Shown: positions 52,985 to 62,909 of the stretch, piece after piece
Position numbering within the stretch: position 1 is the first letter of the stretch
How the letters are laid out: every line of letters starts with the position of its first letter
NCBI RefSeq assembly: GCF_009882975.1
Contig: NZ_WTUX01000011.1
Coordinates: forward strand, 485,362 to 549,361
Direction of reading: 5' to 3'
Source of the DNA: Maritimibacter harenae
GTDB taxonomy: Bacteria > Pseudomonadota > Alphaproteobacteria > Rhodobacterales > Rhodobacteraceae
Length of the DNA: 64,000 nt
Notes under the pieces: generated by a model
What the model saw: the letters and a program-made list of their open reading frames with translations, nothing else
What the model was told of the DNA's origin: nothing
Databases searched by the model: none
Translations under genes and position numbers: made by a program

Positions 52985-53115
52985 GTGCCGGTCCCCGGTC
53001 ATTCGAGTTTTAAGCATTGTGCCCGCGCCAGCGTTAAGGGTGCGGAAAGGGAGGGGCGTTAGGGTCGCCGCGGACAGCCCGATGATGGGACGTGTCCTTT
53101 GACCGGAGACCCGAC

Positions 53116-53685
53116 ATGAAGACCCTGCTTGCCTCGACCCTGATCCTCGGCCTCGCCGCGCCCGCGACAGCGCAGGATTTCGCTGCCGCGATGGGCGACT
53201 TTCTCGACCAGCACGTGGTCGGTTGGGCTTCCGACCCGGTGCTGCTCGACGCGATCCGTGACAAGAACGCCGCCCATGAATGGATCGATCAATCCCGCAT
53301 CGATGCGCTCGACCGGGCCTGGCAGGACGAGATCGGGCGCAGCGTGACGCCCACGATCTCGACCGTGATGGAAAACCCCGCATCCGATTTCCTGCGCGCC
53401 CGCGTCAACGCCCTGGGCGGTGCGGTGACGGAGGTCTTCGTGGTGGACGCGCATGGCCTGAACGTCGCGGCCTCGGCCCCGACCTCGGATTACTGGCAGG
53501 GGGACGAGGCGAAGTTCACGGAAACCTTCGCCGTCGGGCCCAGGGCGCGCCATTTCTCCGAGATCGAAAGGGACGCCTCCACCAGCACCTACCAGGGTCA
53601 GGCCTCCTTCACCATCGTCGACCCGGAGACCGGCGCGCCCATCGGCGCGATGACCGTCGGCATCAATGCCGAAGCCCTGTTCTGA
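53116..53685 (+). CDS. Secreted PDC/Cache-like sensor protein next to the chemoreceptor
   Basis: A 189-aa exported protein without membrane anchor. Signal peptide about 1-20 (MKTLLASTLILGLAAPATAQ). The rest looks like a single Cache (PDC) sensor domain: a long N-terminal helix (SDPVLLDAIRDKNAAHEWIDQ), VTEVFVVDAHGLNVAASAPTSDYWQGDEAKF, YQGQASFTIVDPETGAPIGAMTVGINAEAL. These sheets usually form the ligand pocket of receptors, but here stand as a free protein. GGAG lies seven bases before the ATG at 53116. The receptor gene begins 45 bp downstream on the same strand, which suggests that it hands a ligand or signal to the receptor. Confidence 0.75.
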   Translation: MKTLLASTLILGLAAPATAQDFAAAMGDFLDQHVVGWASDPVLLDAIRDKNAAHEWIDQSRIDALDRAWQDEIGRSVTPTISTVMENPASDFLRARVNALGGAVTEVFVVDAHGLNVAASAPTSDYWQGDEAKFTETFAVGPRARHFSEIERDASTSTYQGQASFTIVDPETGAPIGAMTVGINAEALF

Positions 53686-53730: not shown

Positions 53731-56331
53731 ATGCAATTCATCAATAAAGACATTCTCCCGCGGCGCATCCGGGTGAACTCGATCTTCGTGAAGCTTGCCG
53801 CGGTGATCTTCGCGATGTCGGCCCTGCTCGCGGCCGGCGTCTCCTGGTTCTACACCGACGTGTCCCGTTCTCACCTCGAAAACGCGCTGCGCCGCTCGGG
53901 GCTGGAAATCACCACCGTCACCGCCGAAACCCTCGACGGCGCGATGGCGTTCGGTGATACCGATGCCATTCTCGACCGGATCACGCCGCTGGTCGACCAC
54001 GAAGATTCGGAAACCGTGCACGGCCTCGCGCTTGGCGCCGACGGCGACCTCATCGCCTCGGCCGGCCGCGCGCCGGGGCTGGAACCGGCGCTGGCCGCGC
54101 TTGCCCGCACGGCGCTCGCCGAGGGCGCGGTCACGTTGTCCGAAGACGGATTCAGCGTCGCGGCGCCCGTGTTCTACGGCGACCGTGCCGATCCGGTCGG
54201 TGTGCTCGTTCTGGCCTGGACCGCCGAATACCTCGTCGCCGATGCGATGGCGGCCCAGGACACCGCGATCCTCGTCGCTTCCCTCGGTGTGCTTGCCGGC
54301 GTTCTCGTGATGATCTTCCTCGTACGCGGCATGGTCACGCGCCCCCTCGTCACCTCCACCGAGGTTCTCAACGAGGTGGCCGACGAACGCTACGACGTGG
54401 ACATTCCGCCCACGGACCGGGGCGACGAGATCGGCGATCTCGGCCGCGCGATCGAGGACTTGCGCCAGAAGCTTCTCGCGGGCGCCGAAACCGCCCGGGA
54501 AAACCGCTTTCGCGGCGAGGCCTTCAAGGCCTCCGCATCCGCGGTGATGATGGCCGACAGCGAGATGCGGATTTTCGGCGCGAACAATGCGGTGCTGGAG
54601 CTCATGCGCCACTACGAGCCGGAATTCCGAAAGACCTGTGACGGGTTCGACCCGGACAATGTCATCGGCCAGGACATGGATTTCTTTCATGCCGGTGCGC
54701 TCAAATCCCGCGTGCGCCAGATCCTCGCAGATCCCGCGAACCTGCCCTACGACGCGAACATCAGCGTCGGCGACGCCCGCTTTCGCCTCCTGATCACCCC
54801 GGTCCGTTCTGACGAAGGTGCGCTTGACGGCTACGTCGTGGAATGGACCGACAAGACCAGCGAATACATGAACGAGGCGATCCTGGCGGCCATCGAGAAC
54901 AACCAGATCAAGGCCGAATTCTCGCTCGATGGAAACCTGAAAGCCGCGAACGCCATGTTCTACGATGCCTGCGGCGCGTCCCCGGCTTCTCTTGGCGAGG
55001 TGAACTTGGATCGCTTGATCGATTTGGACGAAGGCCTCGAAGGCGGTCTCGGCAGCATATTTGACCGGCTGCGCCAGGGAACCGCTGTCTACGGCGAGTT
55101 CAGGATCAAGCGCCGGTCCGGCGGACATGCGGTCATCGATGGCGGCTTCACCCCGGTACAGGACGTGAAAGGCAACCTCCTGCGCATGGTGCTGGTGGGG
55201 CGCGACGTCAGCGAAGACCGCGCGCGCATCGCCGAAGCCGAAGCGGAGAAGCAGGCTGCGAAAGCGACCCAGGACAAGGTTGTCGACGCCCTGAAGCACG
55301 GTCTGGAATCCCTGGCGAACGGCGACCTGATGACCCGGATCGACGAGGTCTTTACGCCTGATTACGAACAGTTGCGCACGGACTTCAACCTCGCCGCGGA
55401 CAAGCTGTTGGACGCGATGCGCGGCGTGATCGAGAACGCCGATCTCATCACCGGCGAGGCCGCGGAAATTTCGTCGGCCGCCGACGACCTCTCGGCCCGG
55501 ACCGAGAAACAGGCCGCCACCCTGGAAGAGACCGCCTCGGCACTGGACGAGCTCACCTCTTCGGTAAAATCCGCCGCGGACGGCGCGACCCATGCCAATG
55601 ACATCGTGGAAAAGGCCCGCGACAACGCCGAAGCCTCGGGCACGGTCGTGCGCGAAGCGGTGACGGCGATGGGCGAGATCGAAACGAGTTCGACCCAGAT
55701 CTCCAAGATCACCGGCGTCATCGATGACATCGCTTTCCAGACCAACCTCCTGGCCCTCAACGCGGGCGTCGAGGCCGCACGCGCGGGCGAAGCCGGACGG
55801 GGCTTCGCCGTGGTCGCCTCGGAGGTGCGTGCCCTCGCGCAACGCTCCTCCGAAGCGGCACGCGAAATCAACGCGCTCATTTCCGCCTCCGGCGGCCAGG
55901 TCAAGCGCGGCGTGGATCTGGTCGGGCAGGCGGGCGACGCGCTCAAGGGCATCGTCGAGAGCGTCTCGGAGATCAGCCGTCACGTCTCGGAGATCGCGGT
56001 CAGCGCGCGTGAACAGAGCGCAGGGCTCGCCGAGATCAACGCGGCGGTGAACCAACTCGACCAGGTGACCCAGCAGAACGCGGCCATGTTCGAGGAAACC
56101 ACTGCCGCGAGCCACGCGCTCACGCGCGAGGCAGAGACACTGGCCCAGACGATGGGCCGGTTCCAAACCGGCCCGCGCGACGCGGGGAACGAAGCGCATG
56201 CGCCCGTCCCCTTCACCACCCGCCGCGATCCCGTACGCGACACGGCGTCCCAACCTGCGCTTCACGCAGGTGCGGCCGCTGTCGCCGTCGCGGAGGTTCC
56301 CGATGACGATGACGGTTGGGACGAATTCTGA
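53731..56331 (+). CDS. Methyl-accepting chemotaxis protein with HAMP and two PAS-like domains
   Basis: An 866-aa chemoreceptor. TM1 about 17-41, a short periplasmic region (42-178, Cache-like), TM2 about 179-200, HAMP about 200-250, PAS-like domain 1 about 262-375, PAS-like 2 about 385-495, a second HAMP-like stretch (515-565), then the methylated signalling domain whose tip is [16 protein letters not shown] (about 664-679). The final five residues, GWDEF, fit the pentapeptide that tethers CheR (x-aromatic-x-x-aromatic). cheB follows 14 bp later. The PAS domains could sense redox or a cytosolic ligand. Confidence 0.92.
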
Positions 56332-56345
56332 GCGGAGGTCGAGCC

Positions 56346-57398
56346 ATGAAGAAGGCCTGCCGCGTCTTGGTGGTGGACGACTCGTCCACCATGCGAAAAC
56401 TCATCCGCCACGGACTTGGTCGCGATCCCCGTTTGCGGGTCGTGGGTGAAGCTGGGACGGCCCGACAGGCACGCGAATTGGTCAAGACGCTCGAACCGGA
56501 TATCATGACGCTAGATGTCGAAATGCCCGGAATGGACGGTCTCGAGTTCCTGTCGCGCCTGATGATCGCACGCCCCATGCCCGTGGTGATGGTTTCGTCC
56601 CTGACCGGCCGCGGCAGTGACGCCGCAATCCGGGCTTTGTCCCTCGGGGCGATGGAGTGCATCGAGAAACCGCGCTTCGGCACCGCCCAGGAAACGTTCT
56701 CCCAACTCGCCGATCTTCTTGTAACCCTGTCCGCCGCAAAGCCCTCCACACGACCAGGTCGATCGCCCGCCAGCCGTGAACGCGAATACGACCCGCCCTT
56801 TCAGTGGAATGGCAGATTCCTTCTCATCGGTGCATCGACAGGCGGGGTCGACGCGCTTGAAACCATCTTTTCAGCTTTTCCCAACGACGCGCCGCCGACG
56901 CTAGTGACCCAGCATATGCCGGCACCGTTCCTTGCGAGCTTCGCAGAGCGTCTCAATTCGAACATGTGCCCCAACATACGCCTCGCGTCCGACGGTGATG
57001 TACTGACGCAGGGCAACATCCTGATCGCGCCAGGGGGCCGATACCATCTTCGGCTTTCGCATGATGGGGCGGCACAGGTGACACTTTGGGAGGGGCCCAA
57101 ACGAAATGGGCATCGACCATCGGTCGATGAAATGTTTCTTTCCGCATTGCCGGTGGCGCAGCGATCGGTGGCGGCGCTCCTCACCGGTATGGGCCGGGAT
57201 GGAGCCGCCGGACTGCTGCAACTCAGATCCGCCGGTGCCCGAACCTTCGCACAGGACGCCGCATCCAGCATCGTTTACGGGATGCCTCGCGTGGCGACCG
57301 AAATCGGGGCCGCAGGAGAAGTCGTTCCACTTGCTCAAATGGCGTCGGCTTTGTTGGGTGCTTGCGCGTACCAGGTTCCGATGGGTGCAGGGGCTTGA
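56346..57398 (+). CDS. cheB: Chemotaxis methylesterase/deamidase CheB
   Basis: A 350-aa response-regulator methylesterase that removes methyl groups from receptors. The receiver domain has D11/D12, phosphoacceptor D57 (MTLDVEMPGMDG) and Lys109; a linker spans about 125-155; the catalytic domain has the triad Ser164 (IGASTGG), His190 (TQHMP) and Asp285 (TGMGRDG). Start ATG 56346 (MKKACRVLVVDD). It is preceded by the receptor and followed by cheD one base after its stop. From about its second half the base composition drops below that of the flanks. Confidence 0.95.
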   Translation: MKKACRVLVVDDSSTMRKLIRHGLGRDPRLRVVGEAGTARQARELVKTLEPDIMTLDVEMPGMDGLEFLSRLMIARPMPVVMVSSLTGRGSDAAIRALSLGAMECIEKPRFGTAQETFSQLADLLVTLSAAKPSTRPGRSPASREREYDPPFQWNGRFLLIGASTGGVDALETIFSAFPNDAPPTLVTQHMPAPFLASFAERLNSNMCPNIRLASDGDVLTQGNILIAPGGRYHLRLSHDGAAQVTLWEGPKRNGHRPSVDEMFLSALPVAQRSVAALLTGMGRDGAAGLLQLRSAGARTFAQDAASSIVYGMPRVATEIGAAGEVVPLAQMASALLGACAYQVPMGAGA

Positions 57399-57399
57399 T

Positions 57400-57930
57400 A
57401 TGAGCAGTCTTGAAGCGCGGAAATCCGGCCGGACCTACATCGCGCAAGGCGAACACGCCATCGATGGAGGTCCGGACGCTGTCATCGCGACGCTTCTGGG
57501 GTCATGCGTTGCCGCCTGCATATGGGATCCAGGCCGCGGGATCGGCGGCATGAATCATGTATTGTTCGTTGACGCGACCGCGTCGTCCTCCATGACGTAT
57601 GGATATGGCGTCAATGCGATGGAACTCTTGATCAACGGCTTGTTGCGCCTGGGCGCAGAGCGGCGCGCCCTGCGAGCCAAGGTTTTCGGGGGCGCGCGCA
57701 TGATAGATGGGCTATCGGATGGTGGATCCCGGAATGCGGAGTTCGTTCAACACTTCCTGGCCCGGGAAGGGATCAGCGAAGTCGGGTCTGACATCGGCGG
57801 AACCAAGGCGCGACGGGTGGAATTCTGGCCGGGCACCGGGCGCGCGCGTTTGAAATATGTTCGGCAAACTGTCCCTGTCGTCTCGAGTAGCCTCCACCGC
57901 AAGACAAGTCGAGATATCGAATTGTTCTGA
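57400..57930 (+). CDS. cheD: Chemoreceptor glutamine deamidase CheD
   Basis: A 176-aa deamidase that changes receptor Gln to Glu and in some bacteria also docks CheC. The catalytic Cys36 lies in LLGSCVAACIWDP and His53 in GGMNHVLF, 17 residues apart as in Thermotoga CheD. KVFGGARMIDG and the later HFLAREGI are family features. The ATG follows the cheB stop by one base. It ends in a 41-bp gap to the convergent operon. Confidence 0.93.
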   Translation: MSSLEARKSGRTYIAQGEHAIDGGPDAVIATLLGSCVAACIWDPGRGIGGMNHVLFVDATASSSMTYGYGVNAMELLINGLLRLGAERRALRAKVFGGARMIDGLSDGGSRNAEFVQHFLAREGISEVGSDIGGTKARRVEFWPGTGRARLKYVRQTVPVVSSSLHRKTSRDIELF

Positions 57931-57971: not shown

Positions 57972-58349
57972 TCATAGCCAGGTCAGCGTATTGTCCGGGA
58001 CCGTTGTCTCGTCGGGGGTCAACTCCGGAAAAAGGCGATGCCTTAGGCTGGTAAGTTTCAGTAACTCTGCGACACCACGGGCGTTATTGAACTGGACATC
58101 CAAAGCACGAGTGAGCTTTGCCAGATCATCGAGAGTTTGATGGAGGCGATCAAGCTCCTGAAGCATGTGGTAATCCACGACCTGCTGCGGGTTGTCGAGC
58201 TTCTCCAACATCGCCGAGACGACGAGCTGCAAATGTTTGCAGGTCTCTGCAGATGATTGAAGTTCGCCGGACAGCCGCTCGGCCAGATGCTGGCGCGGTG
58301 GCCCCCCGGAATCTTTGGCTTTGGGGCCGTCATTTTGCGGATCGACCAT
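57972..58349 (-). CDS. Small helical chemotaxis-operon protein; candidate CheZ/CheT-like CheY phosphatase
   Basis: 125 aa, not recognised by sequence alone. It is predicted nearly all-helical after residue 20, with a long amphipathic central pair: ETCKHLQLVVSAMLEKL and VVDYHMLQELDRLHQTLDDLAKLTRALD. D67-R-L-H-Q71 fits the D-x-x-x-Q phosphatase motif of CheZ. The C-terminus ends LTWL, hydrophobic like the CheY-binding tail of CheZ. The ATG at 58349 comes one base after the cheY stop, so it is coupled to cheY. I recall that rhizobial CheT, at the same place in che operons, was described as a remote CheZ homologue. Function remains inference. Confidence 0.7.
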   Translation of the reverse strand: MVDPQNDGPKAKDSGGPPRQHLAERLSGELQSSAETCKHLQLVVSAMLEKLDNPQQVVDYHMLQELDRLHQTLDDLAKLTRALDVQFNNARGVAELLKLTSLRHRLFPELTPDETTVPDNTLTWL

Positions 58350-58350
58350 C

Positions 58351-58737
58351 TCAGAGGCGTCCCACGATCGCTTCGATTGCCTTGCGCAGGTCAGCCGGCT
58401 GAAATGGCTTCGCGAGAAAGTTGTTCATACCGAGCTTCTTACCGGTTTCGATGATATTTCTATCAGCTTTGCCCGTTATCAGTAGAAAACCGACCTTGCC
58501 CGTGCGCGCGTTGGAGCGCAGTGCGTGCAAGAGTTGCAGGCCGTTCATCCCGGGCATGTTCATGTCGGATATGACCAGGTGGACTGGCCATTGCGCGAGC
58601 TTGTTCAAGGCAGATTCACCGTCGGCCGCGCTTTCCACCTGCCTGATTCCGAAACCGTCGAGCGCCTGGGTAATGAGCCCGCGACTCGTCGACATATCAT
58701 CCACGACCATGATGCGAAGCTGTTCGCGCAAAGACAT
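58351..58737 (-). CDS. cheY: Chemotaxis response regulator CheY
   Basis: A 128-aa single receiver domain: IMVVDDMSTSRGLI (acidic pair D13/D14), phosphoacceptor D58 in LVISDMNMPGMNG, the switch Thr in LLITGKAD, and Lys in NFLAKPFQPADL. MSTSRG after the acidic pair is the alphaproteobacterial chemotaxis form. It signals to the flagellar motor when phosphorylated by CheA. Its stop is one base from the small helical gene's ATG; cheR ends one base upstream. Confidence 0.92.
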   Translation of the reverse strand: MSLREQLRIMVVDDMSTSRGLITQALDGFGIRQVESAADGESALNKLAQWPVHLVISDMNMPGMNGLQLLHALRSNARTGKVGFLLITGKADRNIIETGKKLGMNNFLAKPFQPADLRKAIEAIVGRL

Positions 58738-58738
58738 G

Positions 58739-59638
58739 TCAGACCGCCTCTTTCAATTCTGAGTTTTCAAGGGCCGTTCGACGATAGGCCGTGACCCCCG
58801 CTTTTTCGAAGTATGGCTCGACCTCGGGGCTAATCCGCTCGCTGTGCCCAAGGAACAGATGGCCGCCGGGCTCCAGGATTTTGGCGAACCTCCTCCAAAG
58901 CCTTGTCTGGGTTGGCTGGTCGAAGTAGATGACGACATTCCGGCAAAAGATCGCGTCGAATTTCCCGCGCATTGGCCAGTCACGCAGCAGGTTGAGGATA
59001 CGAAAGGTTGTCAGGTCGCGAAGCGTATCCGCGATTAGCAGTTGGCCATCTGTTTTTCTGAAATGATCTGCGCGCATTTGAGGTGCGAGGCCGGACAGCA
59101 TGTGTTCGGGGTACTGCCCGGATCGCGCGAAGACGACAACGGCCGGGTCGATGTCCGTGGCAAGGATGCGGCAATCCTTTTGCGACGTCAGTCCGGCTTC
59201 CGCGAGAACCATCGCGATCGAATAGGGCTCTTGTCCATTCGCGCATCCCGCCGACCATATGCGGACCGGATGGCCACGTTCGATCTGTTGCCTGAATGCA
59301 GGAATGAGCGTGGAGCGAAGCAGTTCAAAGTGGTGCGCTTCGCGGAAAAAGTGCGAGACGTTGGTGGTCAGTGCGGAGATGAACCTGGGTATTTCCTCGG
59401 CCCCGTGTGGACCCTCGATGAGCGCGCAATACGCGTCGAAGTCGGCAAGCCCCAGCTGGCGAAGGCGGCGGGCGAGGCGGGTTCGGACCATGTCGGATTT
59501 GGAGGCCCCAATCGCAAGCCCGGCTTCGCGTCGCGCAAGGGCGGTTATGCGACGGAACGCGGCATCCGACAATGTCGGGCCGTGCAGGCCCACCGGTGCT
59601 TTGGCTTCGGGCTTGGGATGTGGCTTCATGTCGATCAC
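58739..59638 (-). CDS. cheR: Chemotaxis methyltransferase CheR
   Basis: A 299-aa SAM-dependent enzyme that methylates receptor glutamates. N-terminal helical domain (LSDAAFRRITALARREAGLAIG, SALTTNVSHFFRE), motif I IWSAGCANGQEPYSIAM, LATDIDPAVVVFARSG and FDAIFCRNVVIYFD. The usual beta-subdomain loop for pentapeptide binding lies around 200-230 and is present in outline. The GTG at 59638 overlaps the cheW stop (GTGA); ATG 59629 is the alternative. The base composition is lower than cheW upstream. Confidence 0.94.
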   Translation of the reverse strand: MIDMKPHPKPEAKAPVGLHGPTLSDAAFRRITALARREAGLAIGASKSDMVRTRLARRLRQLGLADFDAYCALIEGPHGAEEIPRFISALTTNVSHFFREAHHFELLRSTLIPAFRQQIERGHPVRIWSAGCANGQEPYSIAMVLAEAGLTSQKDCRILATDIDPAVVVFARSGQYPEHMLSGLAPQMRADHFRKTDGQLLIADTLRDLTTFRILNLLRDWPMRGKFDAIFCRNVVIYFDQPTQTRLWRRFAKILEPGGHLFLGHSERISPEVEPYFEKAGVTAYRRTALENSELKEAV

Positions 59639-60114
59639 GCGACATCCTCGTCGGCGACGGGGAGGATCGCCCCGAGGTCCAGAAGGCGGATCATGCGGTT
59701 TTCCTTGATCGTCAACGCGGATATGAAACTGCGCTGCTGGTCGGCCGGCAGGTCCGGCGGCGCTTGCAGATCATCCGGCGAGATGGCCAGGATGTCCGAG
59801 ACCGCGTCGACCATCAGACCGACCACCCGCGCGCCGTTCGCCACGACGATGATCACGTTGCGCAGGCCGTTGGTGTCGACGGTGAGGTCCAGGCGCCCGG
59901 CGAGGTCCATGATTGGAAGGACGGTGCCGCGCAGGTTGATGACCCCACGCATGTAGCTGGGGGAATGCGGCAGCGGGGTCGCTTTCGCGCCACCGCGGAT
60001 TTCGCGCACCTGCATGATGTCGATGCAGTAATCCTGGCCGCCGACCAGAAAGGACAGGTATTCCCGCGCAGCTGTATCGCCGGTCCTGTCTTGCGCGGTG
60101 TCCGGGTCGATCAT
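59635..60114 (-). CDS. cheW: Chemotaxis coupling protein CheW
   Basis: A 159-aa adaptor that links receptors to CheA: YLSFLVGGQDYCIDIMQVREIRG, SPSYMRGVINLRGTVLPIMDL and VVGLMVDAVSDIL are CheW signatures. The ATG overlaps the cheA stop (ATGA), and its own stop overlaps the cheR start, a chain of translational coupling. Confidence 0.95.
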   Translation of the reverse strand: MIDPDTAQDRTGDTAAREYLSFLVGGQDYCIDIMQVREIRGGAKATPLPHSPSYMRGVINLRGTVLPIMDLAGRLDLTVDTNGLRNVIIVVANGARVVGLMVDAVSDILAISPDDLQAPPDLPADQQRSFISALTIKENRMIRLLDLGAILPVADEDVA

Positions 60115-62258
60115 GACGAAACTCCAATCTTTTGGGGAGAGACGGGCTTCGCAGGCTGGGTGTGGCCCGAGGCTTGGGCGACAAGGTCGATCGGGTCGAG
60201 GATGAGTGCGATCTGGCCATCGCCCAGTATTGTGGCCGCAGCGATGCCGGGCACGCGCCCATAGGCTTCCTGAAGCCCTTTTATCACCACCTGCCGTTGA
60301 TCCTCGATCGCGTCGACCACCACAGCCGCGGCGAGCCCGTCCTCCTGCCCGATGAGCAGGACGACGCTGCCGGTGTAATCCTGGAGAGGGTGCCGGTAGC
60401 CCAATTCAGCGCCCAGGTCGATGAGCGGCACGAAGGTGTCGCGGATGTTGATGACGTGTGTGTTCGGTCCGAAGGCGCGCAGATCGTCCGGGGTGACCGC
60501 AAGGGTTTCGAAAATCGCATTGAGCGGCACGACCAGCGTTTCGCGCGCGACGCGCACGACCATGCCGTCGAGCACCGCGAGGGTGAGGGGGAGGGAGATC
60601 GAGAAGGTGGTTCCCTGGCCCGGCTCCGACTGGATCGTCACGCGTCCGCCCAAGGCCTGGATCGCATTGCGCACCACGTCCATGCCGACGCCGCGGCCGG
60701 AGAGGTTGGAGATCCTGTCGGCGGTCGAGAAGCCGGGCAGGAAGAGGAGGTTGTCGATCTCGCTGTCGGTGAGCTGGCTGTCGGCCGGTATGAGCTCCTT
60801 CTCGATCGCCTTGGCCAGCACCTTCGGACGGTTGATGCCAGCGCCGTCGTCGGCCACCTCGATCACAACCCGGCCCGAGCGGTGGAGCGCGGTCAGCTGG
60901 ACGGTGCCTTCGCGCGGTTTGCCCGCAGCCTCGCGCGCGTCGCCGGGTTCGAGCCCGTGGTCGACCGCGTTGCGGATCATGTGGGTGAGCGGATCGGCGA
61001 GGCGTTCGATCACCGTCTTGTCGACCTCGGTGTTCTCGCCTTCGGTGCGCAGGCGCACGTCCTTTCCGATCGCGGCAGACGCTTCGCGCACGATGCGCGA
61101 CATGCGCTGGAACAGGGATTTCACCGGCTGGGCGCGGATCATCATCACGCTTTCCTGGATGTCGCGGGTGAGTTGCTGGAATTCCTCGAGCCCCGTGCGC
61201 ACGGGCGAGTTCGGCGGCACGCCGGCCGCATCCACGCTCTGGCTCAGCATCGCCTGGTTGATCACGATTTCACCCACCAGGTTCACGAGCCGGTCGATCC
61301 GGTCGAGGTCCACGCGCACCGTGGCGCGCGGCGTGGCCGCCGCCGGGGCGGGGCGCGGAGAGGGCTCCGGAGACGGCGCGGTTTCAGACGTTGGGCGAAC
61401 CGGCTCCGGTATCGGCTTTTCGGGATCCGGCGTCTCGCCGGACAGTGCAGCCAGATCATCGAGTTCGGCGAGATCGGGGAGATCGGCCGGTGGGGGCGGC
61501 GCGTCATCTGCCCGCATGATGTCGAGGCTGCACAGCCCCTCGACGAAATCGAAGGCATCGGCGATCGCCCCGCGCCCTTCCGGTGTGGTGAGCCGCAGGG
61601 TCCACCCCAGGTGGGCGTGTTCGCAGTCCAGCGCCTCGAGCGGGGGCAGGTCGTTGTCGTGGCAGGTGACCGTCAGGTCGCCCAGATCGCGCAGGGCCCG
61701 GAACAGGAATTGTGGCTCGTTGCCGTTGGCATAGAGCAGCGGGCCCGGCGTGAACGTGATGTCCCAGGTCGGGTCTTCCGTCTCGCCGGGGGCGTCGAGG
61801 TCGAGGTCGAGCGAGAGGGTCGTGACCTCGAAGTCGATCGGGTCGTCCTCGGCAACGTCATCCGCGGGCGTCGCGCCCAGGAGCGTGTCGAGCTCGGCGA
61901 GGATCGGGTCCGTCCTGGTGGGGTCGTGGGGGATGTCGTCGCGCGCTTCACGCACGAGATCGGTCAGGATATCGCTGCAGGTGAAGAAGAGTTTCAGCAC
62001 GTCGGGCGACGCGGACAAGTGCCCGCTGCGCACGAGGTCCAGCGCGGTTTCGAACCGGTGGGCGAAAGCGACCAGCGTGTCGAGCCCGAACGCCCCCGCA
62101 CCGCCCTTGATGGAATGCACAGCGCGGAAGACCACGTTCACGGTCTCGCCGTCGCCCATCTCGTCGTAGAGCGTCTGAAGCCCATCCTGCAATGCCTCCA
62201 GGAGTTCCTCGCATTCCACGAAGAACGAGGCGCGGATTTCGGCCATCGGATCGGACAT
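60111..62258 (-). CDS. cheA: Chemotaxis histidine kinase CheA
   Basis: A 715-aa kinase that phosphorylates CheY and CheB. P1 Hpt with the phosphoacceptor in FRAVHSIKGGAGAFG (His48), a middle region (about 125-290, acidic, with a second P2-like fold TWDITFTPGPLLYA...), P3 dimerisation helices (RVDLDRIDRLVNLVGEIVI), P4 ATPase (IRNAVDHGLEP, EVADDGAGI, LPGFSTADRISNLSGRGVGMDVV) and P5 CheW-like domain. Start is GTG 62261 or ATG 62258; the latter is used. It belongs to a tight operon. Confidence 0.95.
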   Translation of the reverse strand: MSDPMAEIRASFFVECEELLEALQDGLQTLYDEMGDGETVNVVFRAVHSIKGGAGAFGLDTLVAFAHRFETALDLVRSGHLSASPDVLKLFFTCSDILTDLVREARDDIPHDPTRTDPILAELDTLLGATPADDVAEDDPIDFEVTTLSLDLDLDAPGETEDPTWDITFTPGPLLYANGNEPQFLFRALRDLGDLTVTCHDNDLPPLEALDCEHAHLGWTLRLTTPEGRGAIADAFDFVEGLCSLDIMRADDAPPPPADLPDLAELDDLAALSGETPDPEKPIPEPVRPTSETAPSPEPSPRPAPAAATPRATVRVDLDRIDRLVNLVGEIVINQAMLSQSVDAAGVPPNSPVRTGLEEFQQLTRDIQESVMMIRAQPVKSLFQRMSRIVREASAAIGKDVRLRTEGENTEVDKTVIERLADPLTHMIRNAVDHGLEPGDAREAAGKPREGTVQLTALHRSGRVVIEVADDGAGINRPKVLAKAIEKELIPADSQLTDSEIDNLLFLPGFSTADRISNLSGRGVGMDVVRNAIQALGGRVTIQSEPGQGTTFSISLPLTLAVLDGMVVRVARETLVVPLNAIFETLAVTPDDLRAFGPNTHVINIRDTFVPLIDLGAELGYRHPLQDYTGSVVLLIGQEDGLAAAVVVDAIEDQRQVVIKGLQEAYGRVPGIAAATILGDGQIALILDPIDLVAQASGHTQPAKPVSPQKIGVSS

Positions 62259-62262
62259 CACG

Positions 62263-62631
62263 TCACCCCGCCACCATTCTGAGCGCTTTCACGAGGCGGG
62301 CAGGCTCGAACGGTTTCACGATCCATCCCGTGGCGCCGGCGTCGCGTGCGCGCGCCTTCATCTCGGCCGCGCTTTCGGTGGTCAGCACGAGGATCGGGAT
62401 CGCCCGGAATTCCTCCCGCGCGCGGACCCCATCGATGAAGCCGAACCCATCCATGCGGGGCATGTTGATGTCGGTGATGATCGCGTCCGGGGCGGGGATC
62501 TCGTCCAGCAGTTCGAGACCATGAAGCCCGTCCTCCGCCAGGTGCGCGCCGATCCCTTCGGCTGTGAGGGCGAGGCGGACCATGTCGCGCATGGTGCGGC
62601 TGTCGTCGACGGCGAGGACCTGCATCGTCAT
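62263..62631 (-). CDS. Second CheY-like response regulator
   Basis: A 122-aa single-domain receiver: VLAVDDSRTMRDMV (D9/D10), D54 in AIITDINMPRMDG, LVLTTESAAEM and WIVKPFEPARL. DSRTMR and the position before cheA mark the CheY type of alphaproteobacterial che operons. Whether it or the distal CheY drives the motor is not told by sequence; one may act as a phosphate sink. Its ATG overlaps the STAS stop (ATGA), with GGGAGG ahead. Confidence 0.92.
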   Translation of the reverse strand: MTMQVLAVDDSRTMRDMVRLALTAEGIGAHLAEDGLHGLELLDEIPAPDAIITDINMPRMDGFGFIDGVRAREEFRAIPILVLTTESAAEMKARARDAGATGWIVKPFEPARLVKALRMVAG

Positions 62632-62909
62632 GGCTGCGCCTCCCACCGCGTGACGCTGTCCGCGCTGAAGCCCAGGAGGGCGAGCTGATCGGCGAGGTCG
62701 GTGGACACGTTGCTGATGGTGAGGGACCGCCCGGCCACCGCCCAGCTCCGGGCAGCCGCGCGGATGACCTGGAGCGACAGGGCGCCCAGGTGCGTGACCG
62801 CGCCCGCGTCGAGCGTCAGATCCTGGCCCGAGTGCGACAGGATTTCATCCCTGAGCGGGCCCGCCGCGCGCAGGTCGAGCTTCGGTGGCAGGGTGATCGC
62901 ACCGCTCAT
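62628..62909 (-). CDS. STAS-domain protein heading the che operon
   Basis: A 93-aa STAS fold: ITLPPKLDLRAAGPLRDEIL, LTLDAGAVTHLGALSLQVIRAAARSWAVAGRSLTISN and ADQLALLGF. In column with SpoIIAA, where DSSG carries the phosphorylated Ser, it reads GALS, so the site Ser is Leu44; it is unlikely to be a phospho-switch. STAS genes lead many alphaproteobacterial che operons, with no clear role. The ATG overlaps the stop of a 12-codon frame upstream. Confidence 0.87.
   Translation of the reverse strand: MSGAITLPPKLDLRAAGPLRDEILSHSGQDLTLDAGAVTHLGALSLQVIRAAARSWAVAGRSLTISNVSTDLADQLALLGFSADSVTRWEAQP

Follow-up and report, generated by a model that had tools for sequence, protein, structure and literature searches.

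A divergent CheT homologue behind cheY in the chemotaxis operon of Rhodobacterales, a probable CheZ-like CheY-P phosphatase

The window, a stretch of 64 000 nucleotides from Maritimibacter harenae, carries a chemotaxis operon on its minus strand, in the order STAS protein, cheY_a, cheA, cheW, cheR, cheY_b and a gene for a small protein that we call CheT-type. On the opposite (plus) strand, a chemoreceptor gene, cheB and cheD run convergently towards this last gene. The features are as follows.

57972..58349, minus strand: CheT-type gene, 125 aa, with a predicted disordered N-terminal tail (1-18), helical hairpin (19-50/56-85), short helices (90-95 and 100-106) and an acidic tail ending in TLTWL
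58158..58160, minus strand: Gln64 codon, CAG; same residue in 80 of 80 sequences
58149..58151, minus strand: Asp67 codon, GAT, the D of DxxxQ; same residue in 80 of 80 sequences, predicted exposed face
58137..58139, minus strand: Gln71 codon, CAA, the Q of DxxxQ; same residue in 80 of 80 sequences, predicted exposed face
58351..58737, minus strand: cheY_b, CheY2-like response regulator directly upstream of the CheT-type gene (Pfam Response_reg, 1.3e-25; 47% to Sinorhizobium meliloti CheY2)
58739..59638, minus strand: cheR (Pfam CheR, 2.9e-62)
59635..60114, minus strand: cheW (Pfam CheW, 9.1e-37)
60111..62261, minus strand: cheA (Hpt, H-kinase_dim, HATPase_c and CheW domains)
62263..62646, minus strand: cheY_a, CheY1-like response regulator (60% to S. 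meliloti CheY1)
62628..62909, minus strand: STAS protein, CheS-like (38% to S. meliloti CheS)
57400..57930, plus strand: cheD, convergent with the CheT-type gene (Pfam CheD, 1.9e-23; ATG start)
56316..57398, plus strand: cheB (Pfam CheB_methylest, 2.2e-52)
53731..56331, plus strand: chemoreceptor gene (HAMP, PAS and MCPsignal; C-terminus GWDEF)

The preliminary description of this DNA had placed a 125-residue open reading frame at 57972-58349, behind cheY. The frame does exist, but it has to be read on the minus strand; the plus frame over the same interval contains many stops. Its ATG (58347-58349) lies 1 nt past the TGA stop of cheY_b, a spacing that is consistent with translational coupling of the CheT-type gene to cheY_b. 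On the plus strand, just ahead of the chemoreceptor gene, a 197-residue protein (53092-53685) that matches nothing in Pfam and begins with what looks like a signal peptide is possibly a periplasmic sensor partner.

Syntenic homologues adjoin cheR–cheY_b in close relatives, and a 12-sequence profile matched 87 of 246 high-quality Rhodobacteraceae genomes, almost without exception of different genera. As an independent test, loci were fetched with CheY_b alone as bait, without use of the CheT-type protein. The 80 named Rhodobacterales loci obtained in this way include Maritimibacter, Celeribacter, Rhodobacter capsulatus, Roseobacter, Sulfitobacter, Thioclava, Pseudooceanicola and others. A homologue is present directly downstream of cheY_b in 79 of them, most often with a one-base or four-base overlap between the two genes, and at the 80th locus the contig ends. 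Since the gene recurs in 79 of 80 CheY-fetched loci and three columns are invariant in 80 sequences, it lies far beyond chance; the CheT-type gene is confirmed as a real gene and not a chance open reading frame. One Rhodobacteraceae genome (L275) still shows the order known from rhizobia, cheB-cheY-cheD-CheT.

Other arrangements were also encountered. At one Rhodobacteraceae locus (L269, 4078-4569, minus strand), the CheT-type gene immediately follows cheR and has no adjoining cheY_b; a CheY-like receiver (35% to CheY_b) is encoded divergently there, near the STAS gene. In another alphaproteobacterium (L128, 750-1337, minus strand), the interval between cheY and cheD holds, on the opposite strand, a divergent helical frame with LQSADRLTQ, which contains DxxxQ; its match is weak (E 0.014) and it may represent an additional branch of the family. 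A frame with LQSVDRRRQ downstream of cheB (L101, 1-398, minus strand) matches with an E of 0.055; several CheZ-like proteins are encoded in the same genome.

The three invariant columns of the 80 sequences, whose median identity is 22%, are Q64, D67 and Q71; the next most conserved are L63, D75, L99 and L73. The D-x-x-x-Q motif noticed in the preliminary description is thus kept in all 80 sequences, and its position in the middle of a helix also held: in the AlphaFold2 model, a monomer computed from 72 sequences, a hairpin (19-50/56-85; mean pLDDT 84) is followed by a loosely ordered tail, and D67 and Q71 are both situated within helix 56-85, where the pLDDT is about 95. On a helical wheel of this helix, Q64, D67 and Q71 stand at 149, 151 and 169° from the hydrophobic face, which makes them an exposed polar stripe, and the burial of D67 and Q71 that had been envisaged as an objection is not seen. 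The hydrophobic C-terminal end was likewise correctly recognized (TLTWL in the window), with a final F, L or W after an acidic stretch in 73 of 79 homologues. Q64, three residues ahead of D67, is as invariant as the motif itself; CheZ instead has Gln at -4 and -1. A small helical protein in an operon with two CheYs could also bring to mind a histidine phosphotransfer protein of the Hpt kind acting in the Che relay, and one homologue does weakly match the CheA dimerisation domain. There is, however, no Hpt match, and we give this reading practically no credence. An Hpt function was rejected since no histidine is conserved: even the column with the most His has it in no more than 17 of the 80 sequences.

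When the window protein was searched singly against Pfam, NCBIfam, PHROGs and PDB sequences, no relative came up, and a profile search of the PDB returned designed and generic coiled coils. Profile searches within the class, on the other hand, uncovered homologues behind cheD in other alphaproteobacteria, one of which led to the S. meliloti records, where the order is cheS-cheY1-cheA-cheW-cheR-cheB-cheY2-cheD-X-fliF. As S, D and T are listed as the extra genes of the S. meliloti che cluster (review, PMC8429497), X between cheD and fliF is cheT. S. meliloti CheT and its rhizobial relatives were then scored with a profile made from Rhodobacterales only. CheT obtained 33 bits (hmmsearch; E 2.5e-7 at 100,000 sequences), compared with at most 7.9 bits among 1,854 shuffled versions of the same protein that were scored, and 21 of 21 rhizobial relatives were matched, all 21 with DXXXQ. 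A profile-profile alignment with CheT by hhalign spans 117 columns at 97.8% probability and an E of 1.3e-12, and it brings the D, the Q and the GDxxF tail of the two into line. The kinship with CheT that the preliminary description had suggested is well supported by these scores, and on this profile evidence we regard the Rhodobacterales protein as a divergent homologue of rhizobial CheT that present annotation misses.

Indeed, the NCBI CheT model NF047973, whose curated equivalog cut-off is 200 bits, does not match the window protein. It gives 225.5 bits to S. meliloti CheT and 20.8 bits, far below the cut-off, to the R. capsulatus protein; 20 of 72 relatives are weakly matched (best 7.8e-6), and none of 120 genomes of the family rises above the cut-off. 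Because it does not reach the curated cut-off, the window protein is counted, from its sequence, as a CheT homologue and not as an NF047973 equivalog. It had been supposed that such a protein was not yet described in Rhodobacterales. This stands insofar as no family genome among the 120 passes the CheT cut-off; on the other side, CheT is published, an NCBI model exists, and a 2025 review that names Caulobacter crescentus and Hoeflea as CheT carriers also loosely lists Rhodobacter sphaeroides among bacteria with CheD, CheS and CheT (PMC12654446). The CheT family is therefore already known, and the window protein adds a new, lineage-wide member to it. New are the sequence-level evidence from all over Rhodobacterales, an altered gene order, and a conserved set that is narrowed down to Q64, D67 and Q71.

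A relation to CheZ itself, as first proposed, did not hold up. Pfam CheZ (PF04344) does not match the window protein, hhalign against nine CheZ sequences gave probabilities of 0.5-0.6%, and rhizobial CheT compared with CheZ, profile against profile, reached 0.1%. Foldseek and VIA-align brought up helical hairpins of a generic kind (ESCRT-III, WXG100); CheZ is not among the matches listed, and the result is neutral as to a shared fold. One could still imagine a true PF04344 CheZ, shortened and diverged past recognition, given that the D and Q of the hairpin's second helix are spaced as in CheZ and that the C-terminal end is hydrophobic like that of CheZ. These profile scores speak against it, as do the absence of the invariant AQDFQDLTGQ of CheZ and the lack of any CheZ above the cut-off in the genome, so that we hold it to be very improbable. 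A remote common ancestry is nevertheless conceivable, since helical hairpins hold little signal. The likeness between the CheT-type protein and CheZ is a functional one, of motif and of helix placement, and the profiles indicate no sequence relation. The preliminary description was right that the operon lacks cheZ, cheC and cheX; profile searches for CheZ, CheC and CheX found no match above the cut-off anywhere in the genome.

We consider it probable that this divergent CheT is a CheZ-like CheY-P phosphatase, in an operon with no other CheY phosphatase. Published CheT has DXXXQ and looks like CheZ when modelled with AlphaFold; it removes the phosphate from one of two CheYs, and it binds CheR (review, PMC12654446). 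By analogy, dephosphorylation of one of the two CheYs in the manner of CheZ is the likely mechanism. The second helix of the predicted hairpin, whose exposed face bears Q64, D67 and Q71, would dock on phosphorylated CheY, as in CheT and CheZ; D67 would help to hold the active-site lysine of CheY, and the amide of Q71 would position a water molecule so that it attacks the acyl phosphate in line, with faster signal termination as the outcome. The protein may act as a dimer, and the acidic tail with its final aromatic residue or leucine may provide a second contact, to CheY or CheR.

This CheR contact could even be the main one. The CheT homologue would then be chiefly an adaptor, its Q/D/Q face and acidic tail binding CheR or CheY so as to connect termination to adaptation, and it would catalyse little or nothing. 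Besides the reported CheR binding by CheT, cheR is close upstream of the CheT-type gene in all 20 operons that were read, and directly before it in L269; the tail is also conserved, although the motif lies elsewhere. S. meliloti CheT is said to bind CheR, with deletion and DXXXQ mutants that reportedly differ in phenotype. Yet, out of 125 positions, exactly the D and Q at the CheZ spacing are invariant, which argues for chemistry and not for a general binding face, and we find a purely adaptor role unlikely.

For the probable phosphatase, the choice of CheY is the next question. CheY_a is present in 20 and CheY_b in 19 of the 20 operons read, so that presence or absence does not tell the partner apart. 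In the 2024 CheT study of Agbekudzi and colleagues, the substrate of the S. meliloti protein is reportedly CheY1. Orthology with S. meliloti favours the CheY1-like CheY_a, and the gene neighbourhood favours the CheY2-like CheY_b. Co-folding with the neighbouring CheY, which the preliminary description had proposed as a check, does not decide between them: a CheY_b–CheT tether was built from Halocynthiibacter namhaensis (L155), where the genes are in frame, by reading the stop codon as glycine, purely computationally and with no claim of readthrough, and its AlphaFold model (pTM 0.55) has an unordered C-terminal tail and no confident interface. It is conceivable, if somewhat doubtful, that the Rhodobacterales protein is a dedicated phosphatase of the adjoining CheY2-type regulator, unlike S. 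meliloti CheT with its reported action on CheY1. If true, termination of the motor signal by the same scaffold would be direct and would not go through the draining of a phosphate sink.

In Rhodobacterales with this operon, among them the laboratory species R. capsulatus, the operon contains no annotated CheY phosphatase, and CheT offers a simple candidate for how the signal is terminated in this large marine group. CheT is also a wider alphaproteobacterial family than the NCBI model covers, and 80 divergent sequences point to three residues for mutation.

Among known systems, the CheC/CheX/FliY phosphatases would fill the same role, with a different fold and an E-x-x-N motif; CheC and CheX were searched for in this genome and none exceeds the cut-off. 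CheZ is likewise a small CheY-linked protein, but of about 214 aa, compared with 125 aa here, and its AXXFQ motif, which adjoins DxxxQ (PMC7750401), is absent from the CheT-type protein. The closest counterpart is CheT of S. meliloti and its relatives (Agbekudzi et al. 2024, doi 10.1111/mmi.15303, cited through PMC12654446), with which the window protein shares a full-length profile match, Q..D...Q in register, a GDxxF-like tail and the same operon partners as in S. meliloti (CheS, CheY1, CheA, CheW, CheR, CheY2 and CheD). The two differ in sequence, with about 12% identity in the profile alignment and Rhodobacterales scores far below the NCBI equivalog cut-off, and in gene place: behind cheY2 here, with cheD and cheB convergent, and behind cheD in S. 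meliloti.
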